From Mangrovimonas sp. TPBH4 (lineage in GTDB: Bacteria > Bacteroidota > Bacteroidia > Flavobacteriales > Flavobacteriaceae), in contig NZ_LBIO01000062.1 in the NCBI RefSeq assembly GCF_001280505.1, forward strand, positions 1-64,000: a DNA stretch of 64,000 nucleotides, read 5' to 3'. Positions 4,685-55,904 of this stretch are shown piece after piece; position 1 is the first letter of the stretch; each line of letters begins with the position of its first letter. The notes beneath the pieces are model-generated. The model was not told the DNA's origin, made no database searches, and saw nothing but the letters and a program-made list of their open reading frames with translations. Both the position numbers and the translations under genes were made by a program.

Positions 4685-5158
4685 ATGCAAACACACAAAA
4701 CCTATACGGTAGAGGAAGCCATCAAAAAGCTGGAGCATTATTGCGCCTATCAGGAGCGTTGCCATAAGGAAGTCGTTCAAAAATTACGAACAATGCACAT
4801 GATCCCTGAGGCCATTGACCATATCGTGGTGCATTTGCTTGAACATAGGTTTTTAAATGAAGAACGCTTTGCCAAAAGTTTTGTGAGGGGAAAGTTCCGA
4901 ATCAAGAAATGGGGACGAAATAGGTTGAAGAATGAACTAAAGTTTAAGGAAATTTCCGCTTATAATATCAATTCGGCTCTAAAGGAAATTGATGAGCAGG
5001 ACTATATGGAAGTGTTTCATAGCCTGGCAGAAAAGCAATGTGGAACCATTAAGGAAACCAATACTTTTAAGAAAAAGAAAAAACTAGCAGATTACCTGCT
5101 GTACCGTGGGTGGGAATCCCATCTGGTCTATGAAAAGGTGAATGAATTGATCCGATAA
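4685..5158 (+). CDS. recX: Regulatory protein RecX
   Basis: The 157-residue product fits the RecX family, small all-helical proteins that bind RecA filaments and modulate recombination and SOS activity in the cytoplasm. The N-terminal region carries the family signature (EEAIKKLEHYCAYQERCHKEV), followed by the second repeat with HRFLNEERFAKSFVRGKFRIKKWG. Length is normal for the family. The ATG at 4685 places the signature at residues 10-30 as expected, and no later Met is suitable. The gene stands alone between the convergent DUF6646 gene and the divergent T9SS gene, and a strong hairpin terminator follows the stop directly. Confidence 0.93.
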   Translation: MQTHKTYTVEEAIKKLEHYCAYQERCHKEVVQKLRTMHMIPEAIDHIVVHLLEHRFLNEERFAKSFVRGKFRIKKWGRNRLKNELKFKEISAYNINSALKEIDEQDYMEVFHSLAEKQCGTIKETNTFKKKKKLADYLLYRGWESHLVYEKVNELIR

Positions 5159-5161
5159 AAA

Positions 5162-5190
5162 AAGGCTGTTTATTAAACAGCCTTTTTTAT
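5162..5190. terminator. Bidirectional terminator between recX and the DUF6646 gene
   Basis: AAGGCTGTT and AACAGCCTT (5162-5184) pair over a TATTA-type loop, with a run of A before and a run of T after. It serves recX on the plus strand and the convergent gene on the minus strand. Confidence 0.85.
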
Positions 5191-5210
5191 ATATGATTTG
5201 TTACTTCAAT

Positions 5211-5702
5211 TTACAGATTGAAGGAAGCTCCAAAGCTAATGGTAAACTGATTGTGCAATTTCTCTGCAGGGGTTAAATGGCCAGTGTCGTAAAAAGCGAT
5301 TGGGTAGGTAGCTTCGGTAAACACGCCAAAACCTGAGGTAAAGAAATAACGCGCTCCTAAGTGCCCTCCAAAATTCTTGATGCTAAAATCCAATCCAGGG
5401 TATAAATCGAAATCTTCGTGAATGTTGATAACATTTCCCAAATGTGCATTAAAGCGTGCTTTAACATCAAAACGGTCAATAAAATCGGCATCAAGGAATT
5501 CAGGAACATCCAAAGCGTAGGTAGAAGCGAACCCTAAAGAGATGTTTTCCCCAAGACCGAAGTCGTAGGTCGCGTTGATTCCCGTAGCGCGGTCTTGAAA
5601 ATTGGCCCCAATTTGGAATTTTTTGTCGCCTTTTCCTTGAAAGGCTTGCGAGTAGGTTAAGGTGGCACATAACAAAAATGCCACAAATAGAATATTCTTC
5701 AT
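5211..5702 (-). CDS. DUF6646-type outer-membrane-like protein
   Basis: With the start at 5702 the product has 163 residues: a signal peptide (MKNILFVAFLLCATLTYSQA) and alternating hydrophobic strands ending in F-x-I-S-F-G-A-S-F-N-L, the aromatic end of an outer-membrane beta-barrel. The wording GDKKFQIGANFQDRATGI and GARYFFTSGFGVFTEATYPIA matches my memory of flavobacterial DUF6646 proteins. Its function is unknown. A longer frame starts at 5738, but a perfect TATATTTG promoter element lies at 5725-5732, inside that extension, and the signal peptide begins at 5702, so the shorter start is chosen. It stands downstream of the cupin gene with its own promoter. Confidence 0.8.
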   Translation of the reverse strand: MKNILFVAFLLCATLTYSQAFQGKGDKKFQIGANFQDRATGINATYDFGLGENISLGFASTYALDVPEFLDADFIDRFDVKARFNAHLGNVINIHEDFDLYPGLDFSIKNFGGHLGARYFFTSGFGVFTEATYPIAFYDTGHLTPAEKLHNQFTISFGASFNL

Positions 5703-5724
5703 GTTATTTGGTTTTTTGAGTGGA

Positions 5725-5732
5725 CAAATATA
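5725..5732 (-). promoter_or_regulatory. Candidate -7 promoter element of the DUF6646 gene
   Basis: TATATTTG on the minus strand is a perfect TAnnTTTG match 22 bp upstream of the ATG at 5702. It decides against the longer reading frame that starts at 5738. Confidence 0.5.
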
Positions 5733-5747
5733 GCACAACCAAAGAAG

Positions 5748-6614
5748 TTATGCGTTAAGATTTATTCTATTATGGGTCCGTGTAATGGCTTGTTCATTTT
5801 TCCAGTCGATCCATTTTTGTCCTTGTAAACGCCTCATGAAATTGTCCAAATATCGCAATACGAAGACATTATAAATGGCGATTCCCAAATTTTTAGGATG
5901 TCTTGGAATGGCCCTTAAACTCATAGAAAAACCAGGAGTTAGATATTTCATATAGTGCCAGAAACCTTCGGGCATGTAGAGTACTTCACCATGTTTCAAT
6001 TGAGTTGTGTAGCCTTCTACATTTTTCAGGGCTGGCCATTGGTTGAAATCTGGATTTGAAAAATCGATATCTTCCCTGGTAATTAAGGAATAGGGGATTT
6101 TATAGAGATGTTTGTTTTGGTTTTGATTGAAAAGAATGATTTGTTTGGTCCCTTCAAAATGAAAATGAAAGATGTTTGCCAAATCAATATCGTAGTGCAT
6201 AAACGTGTGCGAATTTTCTCCTCCAAAGAATAACATTGGCAGCTTCTTCATGAGCTTGATACCAAAATCTGGAAAGGAGAAATCACTTTGTAGTTCTGGG
6301 ACTTCCTTAAGGATATTCCAAAGAAAGATGCGGTATTTGGTGGGTTCGCTTCTTAAAAGGTCGATGTATTCGGCCATTTTCATGGTGGCGTGTGGTTGAT
6401 TGAAACCATCTTCGTGATGTACTGGTCGATCATCGTAAAGCGGAACCGTTCTGTCTCCCGAAACAGATTTCATATACTCCAATGACCATTTGGAATAAGC
6501 CGGCCAATCTTCAGTTAAAGATTCAATAACCACAGGTTTCTGAGGCTTGAAGTAGTTTGCAATAAAGTCCTCTTTGGTAATAGTTTTTACGCGAGGAATG
6601 TTATGAAGCTTCAA
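5748..6614 (-). CDS. Cupin-like (JmjC-type) Fe(II)/2-oxoglutarate oxygenase-fold protein
   Basis: The 288-residue product belongs to the cupin-8/JmjC-like group related to FIH and bacterial protein hydroxylases. The iron site is visible: H140-x-D142 in FMHYDID and a distal His220 in EGFWHYM. The N-terminal KPVVIESLTEDWPA is also typical. Such enzymes usually hydroxylate a protein or small molecule using 2-oxoglutarate and oxygen; the substrate here is unknown. The only start that includes the conserved N-terminus is a TTG at 6612-6614, since an in-frame TAG lies just upstream (6639-6641) and the next Met is residue 48. That TTG lies inside one arm of a long inverted repeat. It follows the TonB receptor gene on the same strand by 93 bp. 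Confidence 0.82.
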   Translation of the reverse strand: MKLHNIPRVKTITKEDFIANYFKPQKPVVIESLTEDWPAYSKWSLEYMKSVSGDRTVPLYDDRPVHHEDGFNQPHATMKMAEYIDLLRSEPTKYRIFLWNILKEVPELQSDFSFPDFGIKLMKKLPMLFFGGENSHTFMHYDIDLANIFHFHFEGTKQIILFNQNQNKHLYKIPYSLITREDIDFSNPDFNQWPALKNVEGYTTQLKHGEVLYMPEGFWHYMKYLTPGFSMSLRAIPRHPKNLGIAIYNVFVLRYLDNFMRRLQGQKWIDWKNEQAITRTHNRINLNA

Positions 6615-6686
6615 TAGAAAAGTATGAATAGTTAACGTCTAAAGTTAAGAAAAGGTTAGGACATGATATTCATACTTTTGCTATTG
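6612..6686. repeat. Long inverted repeat overlapping the cupin start codon
   Basis: Arm 6612-6630 (CAATAGAAAAGTATGAATA) is the reverse complement of 6667-6686 except for one extra base in the second arm. This gives 19 base pairs with a single bulge around a 36-nt loop. On the minus-strand transcript the 3' arm ends in the TTG start codon of the cupin gene. There is no T-run after it, so it is not a normal intrinsic terminator. Confidence 0.75.
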
Positions 6687-6707
6687 TTGAAAACTTGCTT
6701 TTGAGAC

Positions 6708-8528
6708 CTATTTAAAATGATAAGTTACCCCGAACAGTACATTGCCTTTAGGCATTGGTACTAAGTTAGTTTCGTAATATTCTTCGTTGAAAATATTGTT
6801 AGCGTAGAGAGATACATCCAATTGTTGAATACTCACGGTAAGGCTTGCGTCCCATACAGTATAAGCCTGTCCTGAGGTGCGTTCGGCGTATTTGTAGGTC
6901 AAACTTGGTTGTACAATTTTAAAGAAATGACCACGGTAGGTTGCTGTTGCCTGATGCTTTAAAGAGTTGATAGAATATCTTGAATAGTCGATATCCAAAT
7001 CTTTAATTTCATCTTCTATAAAGGTATAGCCAAGATCGATGTGTTGTGTGAGTCCAGACAGTTCAAAATGATAATTAAGGTTGGCTTCAAAACCTTTAGT
7101 GTTCAAATCTCTTATGTTTTCTGCTTGCCAAAGATCGTCCTCATTTACTTTTACATAATCAATAAGTTTTTGGGAATCTCTGTTGAAGAATGCCACAGTA
7201 GCATTGATAGATTTTCCTAGGAATTTAATCCCTATTTCCTCGGCAATGGCCTCTTCAGGATCCAATTGGTCATTTCCTAAAGTTGTTGGGTCGCTGTAGT
7301 ATAAATCGGTGTAGGTGGGGATGCGGTATGTATAACCAATATTTCCGTAAAGTTTTAATTGATCGGAAACGGAATATCCTACATCTACTCCAGGGAATGC
7401 ATGGAATTTAAAATCTGAAAAATAGGTTACTGCCACTCCAGGAGTCACGTCGAATTTGTTGTTGAAAAATTTGAAACGGTGCTCCAAGAAGAAGTTGGTC
7501 ATAAAACGATCACGCTTTCCAAGATTGTTACTTGAGAGGTAGATTTGTGCCAAATCCACTCCAAAACCGGTAGTTCCAATTTTGGTGTTGTAAGAACCGT
7601 GAAGTTCCGCCGCAATTTTATTTGTTTGGTGAAGGTTTCTATAGCCTTCGGGGTTGGTTCTTGTATATAAATACATGTCTTGGTTGCGTCTCCAATACAC
7701 TCTAGGTTTAAGGGTTAGGCTATTATTTCTGTAAGTAGAGGATAGGCCAACCAAGCTAGCTTGTGTCTCTTCATATTGATTTACTGCTGAAGGGGAGGCG
7801 TAAAATCCGTTGGCGCCAAAATCACGTTCTTGGAAAGTGGCAATCAAATCGATGGGCATGTGGTTTTTGTTGAAACTGCTTTTCAAAAAGTAATTCTGAT
7901 TGTCATAATCGGTGTTATAACGATAGCCCTCAGAGGTGTTTCTGGAATAGTGAATGATGTGCGAGGTATTGCTAAGCTCACTACCTACTGTTACCGACGC
8001 ATTTTTCTGCCCGAAAGAACCAGCTTGTACTCCTAAATCTACTCGGTTGTCCATAGATTTTTTAGTCACAATATTGACTGCTCCCGTGAAGGCATTTTGG
8101 CCAAAGACTCTAGCGGCGGGCCCTTTGATGATTTCAATACGTTCAATTACTTCCAAGGGCAATGCCAAGTTCATACTGTGGTGACCGGTTTGTGCATCTT
8201 CCAACTTAATTCCGTCAATTAACAATAAGGTCTGGTCAAAACTTCCACCGCGTATATAAAGATCGGCTTGAGAGCCAAAAGTTCCACGACGACGAACATC
8301 CACTCCGGCTACTTGTTGTAATAAATCGGGAAGATTGGTAGCGGGGCTTTCCTTGATATCTTTTGAGGTGATTACAGTAATGGTTCTTGAGTTTTCTTTA
8401 AAGGGAAGGTCAATACGTGTGGAGGTAATGATGACTTCGTCTAGGGAATCCATTTTTACAGGTTCCACTTGGGCAGTACCTATTAAAGTTGACAATATAA
8501 ATGCCGATGAGAGTAATTTGCTTTTCAT
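6708..8528 (-). CDS. TonB-dependent receptor (small, BtuB/siderophore-receptor type)
   Basis: This 606-residue outer-membrane receptor has a signal peptide (about 1-19), a TonB-box-like stretch (DSLDEVIITSTR), a plug domain (about 40-155, with LPDLLQQVAGVDVRRRG and the IERIEIIKGPAARVFG signature) and a 22-strand barrel ending YHFK. It lacks the N-terminal carboxypeptidase-like domain of SusC-type receptors, so import of a small ligand such as a siderophore, cobalamin or another vitamin is more likely than a polymer. Length is near BtuB (about 600). It is divergent from a MocR-type regulator across 70 bp that hold repeated TAGTCCGG-like boxes, so control by that regulator is likely. The ligand cannot be read from the sequence. 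Confidence 0.9.
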   Translation of the reverse strand: MKSKLLSSAFILSTLIGTAQVEPVKMDSLDEVIITSTRIDLPFKENSRTITVITSKDIKESPATNLPDLLQQVAGVDVRRRGTFGSQADLYIRGGSFDQTLLLIDGIKLEDAQTGHHSMNLALPLEVIERIEIIKGPAARVFGQNAFTGAVNIVTKKSMDNRVDLGVQAGSFGQKNASVTVGSELSNTSHIIHYSRNTSEGYRYNTDYDNQNYFLKSSFNKNHMPIDLIATFQERDFGANGFYASPSAVNQYEETQASLVGLSSTYRNNSLTLKPRVYWRRNQDMYLYTRTNPEGYRNLHQTNKIAAELHGSYNTKIGTTGFGVDLAQIYLSSNNLGKRDRFMTNFFLEHRFKFFNNKFDVTPGVAVTYFSDFKFHAFPGVDVGYSVSDQLKLYGNIGYTYRIPTYTDLYYSDPTTLGNDQLDPEEAIAEEIGIKFLGKSINATVAFFNRDSQKLIDYVKVNEDDLWQAENIRDLNTKGFEANLNYHFELSGLTQHIDLGYTFIEDEIKDLDIDYSRYSINSLKHQATATYRGHFFKIVQPSLTYKYAERTSGQAYTVWDASLTVSIQQLDVSLYANNIFNEEYYETNLVPMPKGNVLFGVTYHFK

Positions 8529-8550
8529 GAATTGATGTAATTTAACCCTG

Positions 8551-8611
8551 CAAAAGTCGTAACTTTCCGGACGAGTAAACTAGTCCAGTTTTAAAACTAT
8601 GAATAGTCCGG
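8551..8611. promoter_or_regulatory. Divergent TonB-receptor/MocR control region with repeated TAGTCCGG-like boxes
   Basis: Three related boxes occur: CCGGACGA (8567-8574, reverse orientation), TAGTCCAG (8581-8588) and TAGTCCGG (8604-8611, inside the first codons of the regulator gene). A perfect 12-bp palindrome AGTTTTAAAACT (8587-8598) sits directly before the regulator ATG. On the minus strand GACTTTTG (8551-8558) is a 7/8 match to the -7 consensus for the receptor gene, with boxes just upstream. GntR/MocR proteins commonly bind repeats next to their own divergent promoters. Confidence 0.45.
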
Positions 8612-10089
8612 TTAATAACCTCTTAAAACAGCTGATTTTTTTTGAAAAGTCAAGTTCAACAGCTGTTTATATTCAAATAGCACAACAAATTATCAATGCT
8701 ATTCAGAGGGGATATCTTTCCAAAGGTACGGCATTGCCGGGAACGCGAAGTTTTAGTCAGATTTTCGGTATCCATAGAAATACGGCTGTGGCGGTTTATG
8801 ACGAATTGGCCTCACAGGGTTGGGTAGAGATTCTGCCCAATAAAGGAACCTTTGTATTGTTGCCAGAACAACGAACGGCTCCCATTAAGGCCTCGGTACA
8901 GCAATTAGATCAGGTTTATAATTATTCTAAAACTACTGGTTTTCCATTTCAACAGTCCTTTCATTTGGCGTCTACGGCTCAGGAAACAAATGCGAAATAT
9001 ACCATTAATGATGGGCAACCTGATTTAAGGCTGCATCCGGTGCATCAATTTTCAAGGTGGTACAGTGCGGCCATGAAGCGAAAGTCGCTAATTTCAAAAT
9101 GGAACCATACAAGCGAATTGTCGGCTTCTGTATTTGAAACCCAATTGTGCAATTATTTAAACGCTACCAGGGGATTTCACATACAGCCTAATGATCTACT
9201 TAGTACGCGTAGTACCGAAATGAGTCTGTACATCGTCTCTCAGTTGTTGATCAAACAGAATGATGTGGTGATAGTGGGGCAATTGGGAAATTATGCCTCA
9301 AACATGATTTTTCAGCAGGCTGGGGCTGCGATTAGGACTATTCCTGTGGATGCACATGGGTTGGATGTCGGTTTTATCCGGACACATTTTGTAAAGGGAA
9401 GTATTCGTTGTGTATATGTGTGTGCTCATAGGCATTATCCAACCACTAAAACTCTGAGTGCCGAACGACGTTTAAAACTTTTGGAATTGGCGAAAGCTTA
9501 TCAGTTTGCCATTATCGAAGATGATTATGATTACGATTTTCAATTTGAAGGTTCAGCCATGTTGCCAATGGCCAGCGCCGATGCCAATGGTCTGGTGATT
9601 TATTTGGGAAAATTGGGGCAGTCTTTGTTCCCAAGTTTTCAAACTGGCTTTGTAGTGGCTCCTGAGAACTTGATTTTGGAGGCGAAAAACTATTTGCAAT
9701 TATTGGACCGTCAAGGCGATTTAATTCAGGAGCAAATGCTTTCGGAATTGATTAGTGAAGGGGAAATGTACCGTTTAGTTAAGAAGAATGTCATTGTTTA
9801 TAAACAACGGCGAGATTATTTGTGTAGTCTGTTGAAGACTTATTTTAAGGATATCATTTCTTATGAAATTCCGGCTGGAGGGTTAGCGATTTGGTTACAA
9901 TTCAAATCCAAAATTTCTTTGGTAAAATTGGCTGAACAAGCAGAAAAGCATGATTTGTTTTTGCCAAAAACTATTTTGTATCAAGATGCGGAAACCTGCG
10001 CCATAAGGTTTGGTTTTGGACATTTAAATGAAGAGGAAATTCAATTTGTCGTTGAACGTTTGAAAAGGGCGTATGATGAGGTGGCTTAA
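8599..10089 (+). CDS. MocR-type regulator: GntR helix-turn-helix plus degenerate aminotransferase-like domain
   Basis: The 496-residue protein has an N-terminal GntR winged helix (about 18-88; AVYIQIAQQIINAIQRGYL, LPGTRSFSQIFGIHRNT) joined to a class I aminotransferase-like domain (about 130-490). This is the MocR/PdxR architecture. In MocR proteins the large domain binds PLP through a Lys in a S-K-T-L-F-P motif. Here that segment reads GKLGQSLFPS, with Gln341 at the lysine position. The acidic EDDYDYDF motif (307-314) is kept, but the SHQYPTG segment is altered to AHRHYPTT. It is therefore a transcription factor that probably does not form the PLP Schiff base and may sense another ligand. 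It is divergent from the TonB receptor and probably controls it. Confidence 0.88.
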   Translation: MNSPVNNLLKQLIFFEKSSSTAVYIQIAQQIINAIQRGYLSKGTALPGTRSFSQIFGIHRNTAVAVYDELASQGWVEILPNKGTFVLLPEQRTAPIKASVQQLDQVYNYSKTTGFPFQQSFHLASTAQETNAKYTINDGQPDLRLHPVHQFSRWYSAAMKRKSLISKWNHTSELSASVFETQLCNYLNATRGFHIQPNDLLSTRSTEMSLYIVSQLLIKQNDVVIVGQLGNYASNMIFQQAGAAIRTIPVDAHGLDVGFIRTHFVKGSIRCVYVCAHRHYPTTKTLSAERRLKLLELAKAYQFAIIEDDYDYDFQFEGSAMLPMASADANGLVIYLGKLGQSLFPSFQTGFVVAPENLILEAKNYLQLLDRQGDLIQEQMLSELISEGEMYRLVKKNVIVYKQRRDYLCSLLKTYFKDIISYEIPAGGLAIWLQFKSKISLVKLAEQAEKHDLFLPKTILYQDAETCAIRFGFGHLNEEEIQFVVERLKRAYDEVA

Positions 10090-51739: not shown

Positions 51740-51760
51740 GCAGCTTTAGTTAAATGCATC

Positions 51761-51793
51761 AAAAAAGCCATCAACAACGTTGATGGCTTTTTT
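51761..51793. terminator. Bidirectional terminator between the surface lipoprotein gene and gldD
   Basis: AAAAAAGCCATCAAC (51761-51775) and GTTGATGGCTTTTTT (51779-51793) are perfect complements with a 3-nt loop. The genes on both sides converge on it. Confidence 0.93.
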
Positions 51794-51812
51794 GTTTTTT
51801 ATGGATATATAA

Positions 51813-55775: not shown

Positions 55776-55865
55776 ATGCCAAGTGGTAAAAAGAGAAAGA
55801 GACACAAGGTAGCGACGCACAAGCGTAAAAAAAGAAGACGCGCTAACCGTCACAAAAAGAAATAA
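55776..55865 (+). CDS. 29-residue highly basic protein
   Basis: An ATG at 55776 opens a 29-codon frame ending at TAA 55863-55865: MPSGKKRKRHKVATHKRKKR followed by RRANRHKKK. About 60 percent of residues are Lys or Arg, with four His and no acidic residue. It stands between the HU stop and a strong terminator and has normal spacing for a real gene. I recall near-identical short basic proteins in Bacteroidota downstream of HU genes, usually annotated only as hypothetical. The composition is like that of very small ribosomal proteins or nucleic-acid chaperones, so RNA or ribosome binding is a reasonable guess without proof. Confidence 0.75.
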   Translation: MPSGKKRKRHKVATHKRKKRRRANRHKKK

Positions 55866-55868
55866 AAT

Positions 55869-55904
55869 GAAAAAGTAGTTTTTTAACTACTTTTTCATTT
55901 TTTT
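55869..55904 (+). terminator. Terminator after HU and the small basic protein gene
   Basis: GAAAAAGTAGTT (55869-55880) and AACTACTTTTTC (55885-55896) are perfect complements with a 4-nt loop, followed by a run of seven T. It begins 4 bp after the small gene's stop, which supports that gene being real. Confidence 0.92.

Follow-up and report, generated by a model that had tools for sequence, protein, structure and literature searches.

Inverted repeat at the start of a cupin gene

The window analysed here is a stretch of 64,000 nucleotides from the marine bacterium Mangrovimonas sp. TPBH4. On its minus strand, a TonB-dependent receptor gene (8528-6708; Pfam PF00593 and PF07715) is followed after 93 nt by a cupin gene (6614-5748) and then by a DUF6646 gene. 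The cupin gene encodes an oxygenase-like Cupin_8 protein of 288 aa (Pfam PF13621, E 5.5e-31) and begins with a TTG codon. The corresponding protein of a relative from the same genus is 98% identical. For the receptor, the nearest NCBIfam model was that of a B12 receptor, with a score far under the model cut-off. A literature search for this Cupin_8 gene found no study.

An inverted repeat reaches from the intergenic stretch into the cupin start codon. Read on the minus strand, like the cupin gene, it consists of a 5' arm of 20 nt (6667-6686), a loop of 36 nt (6631-6666) and a 3' arm of 19 nt (6612-6630). Between the arms, 19 bp are formed and a single base (6680) bulges out. The repeat lies exactly at the coordinates given by an earlier, sequence-only reading of this locus. 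The core consists of 13 perfect base pairs (6618-6630 with 6667-6679), to which 6 further pairs are added. The 3' arm ends at 6612, where the TTG start codon (6614-6612) also ends. An in-frame TAG stop is the ninth codon upstream of this TTG. No inner symmetry is visible in the arms.

Fold strength and rarity of the repeat

The minus-strand RNA from 6710 to 6550 was folded, a check that the sequence-only reading had proposed. The fold had an energy of -30.9 kcal/mol (z -3.77) and was equalled by 1 of 200 shuffles. Folding of the hairpin as a single DNA strand resulted in a z of -4.66. When these 161 nt were dinucleotide-shuffled 1500 times, a perfect arm pair of 13 bp was never obtained, and the best result, 12 bp, occurred once. 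Perfect arm pairs of at least 12 bp with loops of 15-60 nt were searched for in 464 kb of the genome, comprising the window (64 kb) and 400 kb sampled from another contig. No other such pair was found in the window and none in the sample. When loops of 3-60 nt were allowed, the window contained 4 pairs of at least 13 bp, whereas 20 shuffles had 0.05 on average. The other 3 pairs had loops of 3-4 nt only.

An intrinsic terminator was rejected: no T-run follows the stem, in agreement with the sequence-only reading, and a terminator scan of 5600-7000 revealed none between the genes. The remnant of a mobile hairpin element (MITE, REP), which that reading had offered as one origin, was dismissed as well, the exact arm pair being present once in each of three Mangrovimonas genomes. 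No known RNA family reached the Rfam gathering threshold near the hairpin, where a search of 5000-9000 had no match up to E = 1. The 7 weak matches up to E = 1 in this range were all below the gathering score and all within 5079-5265.

Other hairpins of the window have a terminator-like appearance. Between recX and the DUF6646 gene, a perfect 14-bp hairpin at 5158-5188 has an A run at one end and a T run at the other and looks like a two-way terminator. Tight perfect hairpins with arms of 16 and 17 bp and loops of 3-4 nt are found at 51760-51794 and 55864-55901.

A conserved promoter-like element in the loop

The loop contains a feature that the first reading had overlooked. A promoter-like element of 19 bp, TAACCTTTTCTTAACTTTA (6640-6658, minus strand), lies wholly within it. 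The family consensus of this element is TAACGTTTTCTTAACTTTG and holds TAACTTTG, the -7 box of Bacteroidota. In the window, the -7 box reads TAACTTTA (6647-6640) and its final base is A, where G is usual. TAnnTTTG has been described as the -7 box of the main flavobacterial sigma factor (sigma-A), and in F. johnsoniae the G of this box lies at -5 (PMC6847099). Applying this rule, we predict transcription to start within the loop at 6635 (+1). By the same numbering, the 5' arm would lie upstream of the promoter core (-51 to -32), and the 3' arm would span +6 to +24.

We analyzed the conservation of the element in front of related cupin genes. A total of 492 relatives were found and the best 80 were read, 1 of which is from Mangrovimonas. 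With at least 14 of 19 matching bases, the element precedes the cupin gene in 73 of these 80 loci. In 69 of the 73, it ends 17-21 nt before the start codon. TAHHTTTG was present in 53 of the 73 loci, and TAHHTTT followed by G or A in 65. When the loci were anchored on the box only (78/80 loci), TAAC at -23 to -20 and TTT at -17 to -15 were conserved, and a weaker TAAA was visible directly after the predicted start. The conserved bases TAACG and TTTT upstream of the box are common to this gene across genera.

The pattern was also scanned in 60 genomes with up to 2 mismatches. This yielded 29 sites in 24 genomes, compared with 35 sites for the reversed pattern. In the own genome, 8 sites were found at the same stringency and 10 for the reversed pattern. 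The counts are not above the reversed control in either search, and a genome-wide regulon of the element is not supported. However, 15 of the 29 sites stand in front of this cupin gene, and so do 11 of the 12 sites with 0-1 mismatch. Thus the element stands out by its place, but not by the total number of sites in the 60 genomes.

The likeness to flavobacterial sigma-A promoters lies in the -7 box and in the distance to the gene, which suits the short leaders of the family. In F. psychrophilum, leaders have a median length of 24 nt (PMC9723704). In contrast to such promoters, the box in the window ends in A, and TAACG and TTTT are additionally conserved upstream. The A in place of G may weaken the box. 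We infer that the loop element is the active promoter of the cupin gene. Since the predicted start at 6635 is downstream of the 5' arm, mRNA initiated there would not contain the hairpin. As a side result, a promoter-like element is kept before this Cupin_8 gene across Flavobacteriaceae genera, at a nearly fixed distance to the TTG or ATG start.

The 5' arm also contains TACTTTTG (6673-6680). On the plus strand, this is a perfect TAHHTTTG box, which would be directed in antisense towards the 3' part of the TonB gene. It may be there by chance.

A shifted start codon and a rewritten leader

Start codons in the 80 loci were assigned by a start-picking rule of our own. This resulted in 47 TTG, 32 ATG and 1 GTG starts, with Mangrovimonas among the TTG loci. 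A TTG start is ordinary in this cupin family. The sequence-only reading had treated the TTG as rare and had argued that, together with the upstream stop codon, it strengthens the coincidence with the repeat; this argument does not hold.

Most relatives start two codons further upstream than Mangrovimonas. In the codon alignment, their usual start (position -6) reads TTT in Mangrovimonas, and the Mangrovimonas TTG occupies a position where relatives mostly carry a Leu codon. The gap between element and start is 25 nt in Mangrovimonas, compared with the usual 17-21 nt. The shifted alignment of the start codons indicates that the leader stretch has been rewritten in Mangrovimonas. The rewritten stretch fits a single template-switch event, by which one arm would have been copied from the other.

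Predicted accessibility of the start codon

The accessibility of the start region (mean of -10 to +12) was predicted for RNA beginning at the loop promoter and for RNA entering from upstream. In the promoter-initiated RNA, the value was 0.64. Most of the 3' arm was unpaired in this fold, and the best fold of the short RNA had a weak 3-bp helix across the start codon. In the upstream-initiated RNA, the predicted accessibility was 0.19, and it was 0.17 and 0.17 in two Mangrovimonas relatives. The earlier claim that folding would hide the TTG at the end of the 3' arm is borne out by this prediction for RNA that enters from upstream.

The accessibility in upstream-initiated RNA was also predicted for 72 of the 79 loci outside the genus. 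The lowest accessibility among these was 0.20 and the median was 0.50. In the 7 loci left out, the element was weak, no start codon was found where expected, or the upstream sequence was short. In 8 loci of other genera with the TonB-cupin gene order, the accessibility was 0.46-0.66 in 7 and 0.23 in the eighth. These genera retain the gene order but have no strong hairpin. For the start codon alone, the predicted value was 0.005 here, and the five lowest of the 72 other loci had 0.001, 0.005, 0.007, 0.024 and 0.027. The drop from short to long RNA was 0.45-0.47 in Mangrovimonas, 0.47 in one locus of another genus (L099) and 0.43 in a second locus (L057). By these predictions, hiding of the start is not unique to Mangrovimonas.

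Conservation within and outside of the genus

We compared the 75-nt hairpin between three Mangrovimonas species. Pairwise, 1, 1 and 0 differences were observed. The sole change was at one loop base, and the arms were invariant. At four-fold sites of the flanking cupin and TonB genes, the same species diverge by 26-36%. Compared with this divergence, the hairpin is nearly invariant and the region is thus constrained. However, among 824 non-coding windows of 75 bp from the stretch compared, 51 were as conserved as the hairpin, and the bases upstream of the 5' arm are likewise conserved in the genus. Therefore, the conservation is no proof of the hairpin itself. Since the arms are invariant within the genus, there is also no compensatory change or covariation that could prove the pairing.

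Pairing was tested in 79 of 82 sequences; 3 sequences were left out, as the element matched at fewer than 13 of its 19 bases within the search range. In the 76 loci outside the genus, the mean pairing z was 0.03 (60 single-base shuffles each), and 73 of the 76 were above -2. Strong pairing is missing in these 73 loci, and a family-wide conservation of the structure is not supported. The sequence-only reading had proposed an alignment of related genomes and had named an unpaired, diverged repeat in related species as evidence against its proposal. The comparison gave a divided result, in that the repeat is kept within the genus but unpaired in most loci outside of it.

Three outside loci were outliers beyond the normal spread, namely L115 (z -4.3), L057 (z -3.8) and L119 (z -3.7). 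L119 and L115 had patchy pairing, and L119 also contained a separate upstream hairpin. In L057 (Oceanihabitans sediminis, positions 2941-2988 of the locus), an 11-bp perfect pair lies around the same element of the same gene, beside but not over the start. This repeat is unrelated to that of Mangrovimonas and, at 1 of 76 loci, may be due to chance.

In summary, the inverted repeat is a real, rare and genus-specific hairpin. A needed function is argued against mainly by the weak pairing and the open starts outside the genus.

A possible insulation of the cupin gene from read-through

The repeat brackets the predicted cupin promoter and would act at the RNA level in read-through transcripts only. 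The TonB-dependent receptor gene is a possible origin of RNA that reads through into the cupin gene. Such RNA would have both arms and could fold, the TTG start would be buried and the cupin would not be translated. In contrast, RNA begun at the loop promoter (around +1 at 6635) would carry the 3' arm only. It could not fold in this way and would be translated. We count the lack of a T-run terminator between the TonB and cupin genes in favour of this reading. The repeat, its single copy and its conservation in three species are read from the sequence, as are the predicted folds and the conserved loop element at its position. The reading further supposes that read-through occurs, that the fold would block ribosomes and that the repeat has been kept for that reason. 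Among the titles listed by a literature search on Mangrovimonas and transcriptomes, none was on the genus.

This arrangement resembles the leader of phage T4 gene e. In T4, long upstream transcripts of gene e, soc, gene 49 and I-TevI form a hairpin that hides the start, whereas RNAs from promoters just before the start are without the 5' strand and are translated well (PMC3014915). For gene e, the structure in long early transcripts lowers lysozyme synthesis 100-fold compared with transcripts without it (PMC3014915). The cupin locus is alike in that the start region is predicted to pair with an upstream strand in the long RNA, and in that the predicted promoter would give RNA without this strand. 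It differs in being a cellular gene with the promoter-like element wholly in the loop, and its behaviour is predicted where that of T4 was measured; common ancestry is not implied. A further difference from the T4 case is that the Bacteroidota have been described as a phylum that does not use Shine-Dalgarno sequences (PMC6847099).

A limited literature search, judged by title and the start of the abstract, revealed no precedent for such a hairpin at a cellular gene. A comparable fold-back is known from the transposase gene of IS10/Tn10, where external read-through RNA folds over the start and RNA from the inner promoter does not. In contrast to IS10/Tn10, the cupin locus has no transposase gene and no element ends, and it is present in a single copy.

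From these predictions, the hairpin is a good candidate for a mechanism of a known type. We tentatively favour an insulation of the cupin gene from read-through, similar to the T4 gene e leader, although we would put its likelihood somewhat below even. If it is true, a bacterium can keep the gene downstream silent in read-through RNA with no terminator, by means of a promoter bracketed by a repeat, as in T4. This would matter for the reading of Bacteroidota operons, where adjacent genes are easily assumed to be co-expressed. A more complete scenario appears unlikely to us. It holds that an insulator with its promoter in the loop and a 3' arm ending in the start codon was gained in one genus by a template switch, which also shifted the start by two codons.

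Alternative explanations

The repeat could instead be a mutational relic. In this case, a template switch (quasipalindrome) in the Mangrovimonas ancestor would have produced one arm as a reverse-complemented copy of the other, rewritten the leader and displaced the start by two codons. The repeat would have no function of its own and would have been kept via other constraints on leader and promoter. Perfect hairpins have been described to arise by template switching (PMC8794818). A relic is consistent with the lack of strong pairing at 73 of the 76 outside loci, with the TTT at the relatives' start and the TTG at their Leu codon, which mark a rewritten stretch, and with the equally conserved non-coding windows nearby. 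However, both arms are unchanged in three species despite the four-fold divergence of 26-36%, and the outgroups are too distant for a reconstruction of the event. We regard the relic as a serious candidate that is on balance rather unlikely.

A site for a protein, also raised by the sequence-only reading, would take the form of a pair of DNA operators. A regulator would bind two inverted sites, at -51 to -32 and at +6 to +24, and would repress the promoter between them or loop it out. The conserved arms do flank the promoter core, and in the family element TAAC at -23 to -20 is conserved in addition to the -7 box, which suggests regulation at the promoter. In contrast, the genome search for the arm sequence suggested by the earlier reading revealed no excess and a single copy of the exact pair. 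With up to 1 mismatch and both arms counted, 21, 25 and 27 arm-like 13-mers were found in the three Mangrovimonas genomes, compared with 28, 44 and 40 in the reversed control, and there is no sign of a regulon defined by the arm sequence. The absence of visible inner symmetry in the arms also argues against an operator. A near-copy of the arm at 8593-8605 belongs to the conserved start region of a MocR-like gene. The AGTCC/GGACT repeats of that region are absent from the arms, and a MocR operator in the arms is likewise not supported. We keep the operator pair as an alternative but find it quite improbable.

Three other explanations receive little weight. The sequence-only reading had considered a translation switch, and a switch of the riboswitch or thermosensor type within the cupin mRNA would agree with a predicted fold that buries the start codon. 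The burying of the start persists as a prediction for read-through RNA. For the cupin's own transcript a switch is very unlikely, given that the usual mRNA from a loop promoter would be without the 5' arm and that Rfam had no match up to E = 1 near the hairpin (5000-9000); a promoter at the predicted place would exclude it. An invertible promoter, in which a recombinase would invert the 36 bp enclosed by the arms, would correspond to the layout of Bacteroidales invertons, which are from the same phylum and have a promoter between inverted repeats (PMC11892184). In contrast to these, one orientation was present in all three assemblies, the arms differ in length by one base, and none of four nearby genes tested matched a recombinase family. 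The loop of 36 bp is moreover very short against known invertons, and we consider inversion highly improbable. By a simple-composition estimate, a bare 13-bp pair with such loops is expected a few times per genome, which would leave room for a chance repeat. The result of 0 in 1500 shuffles, the lack of an equal in 464 kb, the 6 further pairs and the conservation in three species make chance a highly unlikely source.

Start region of the MocR-like regulator gene

The MocR-like regulator gene is divergent from the TonB gene. Its start region (8529-8613) could be matched in 11 of the 80 loci and showed strong conservation there. This region contains repeats resembling GGAY-N10-GTCC and, in most of these loci, a stretch TAACTTTC. 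AGTCCGG was found within codons 3-5 in 11 of 11 loci. The region is likely an operator of the regulator itself. It reads AAAACAATGAATAGT in 5 of the 10 loci that were matched outside the genus.
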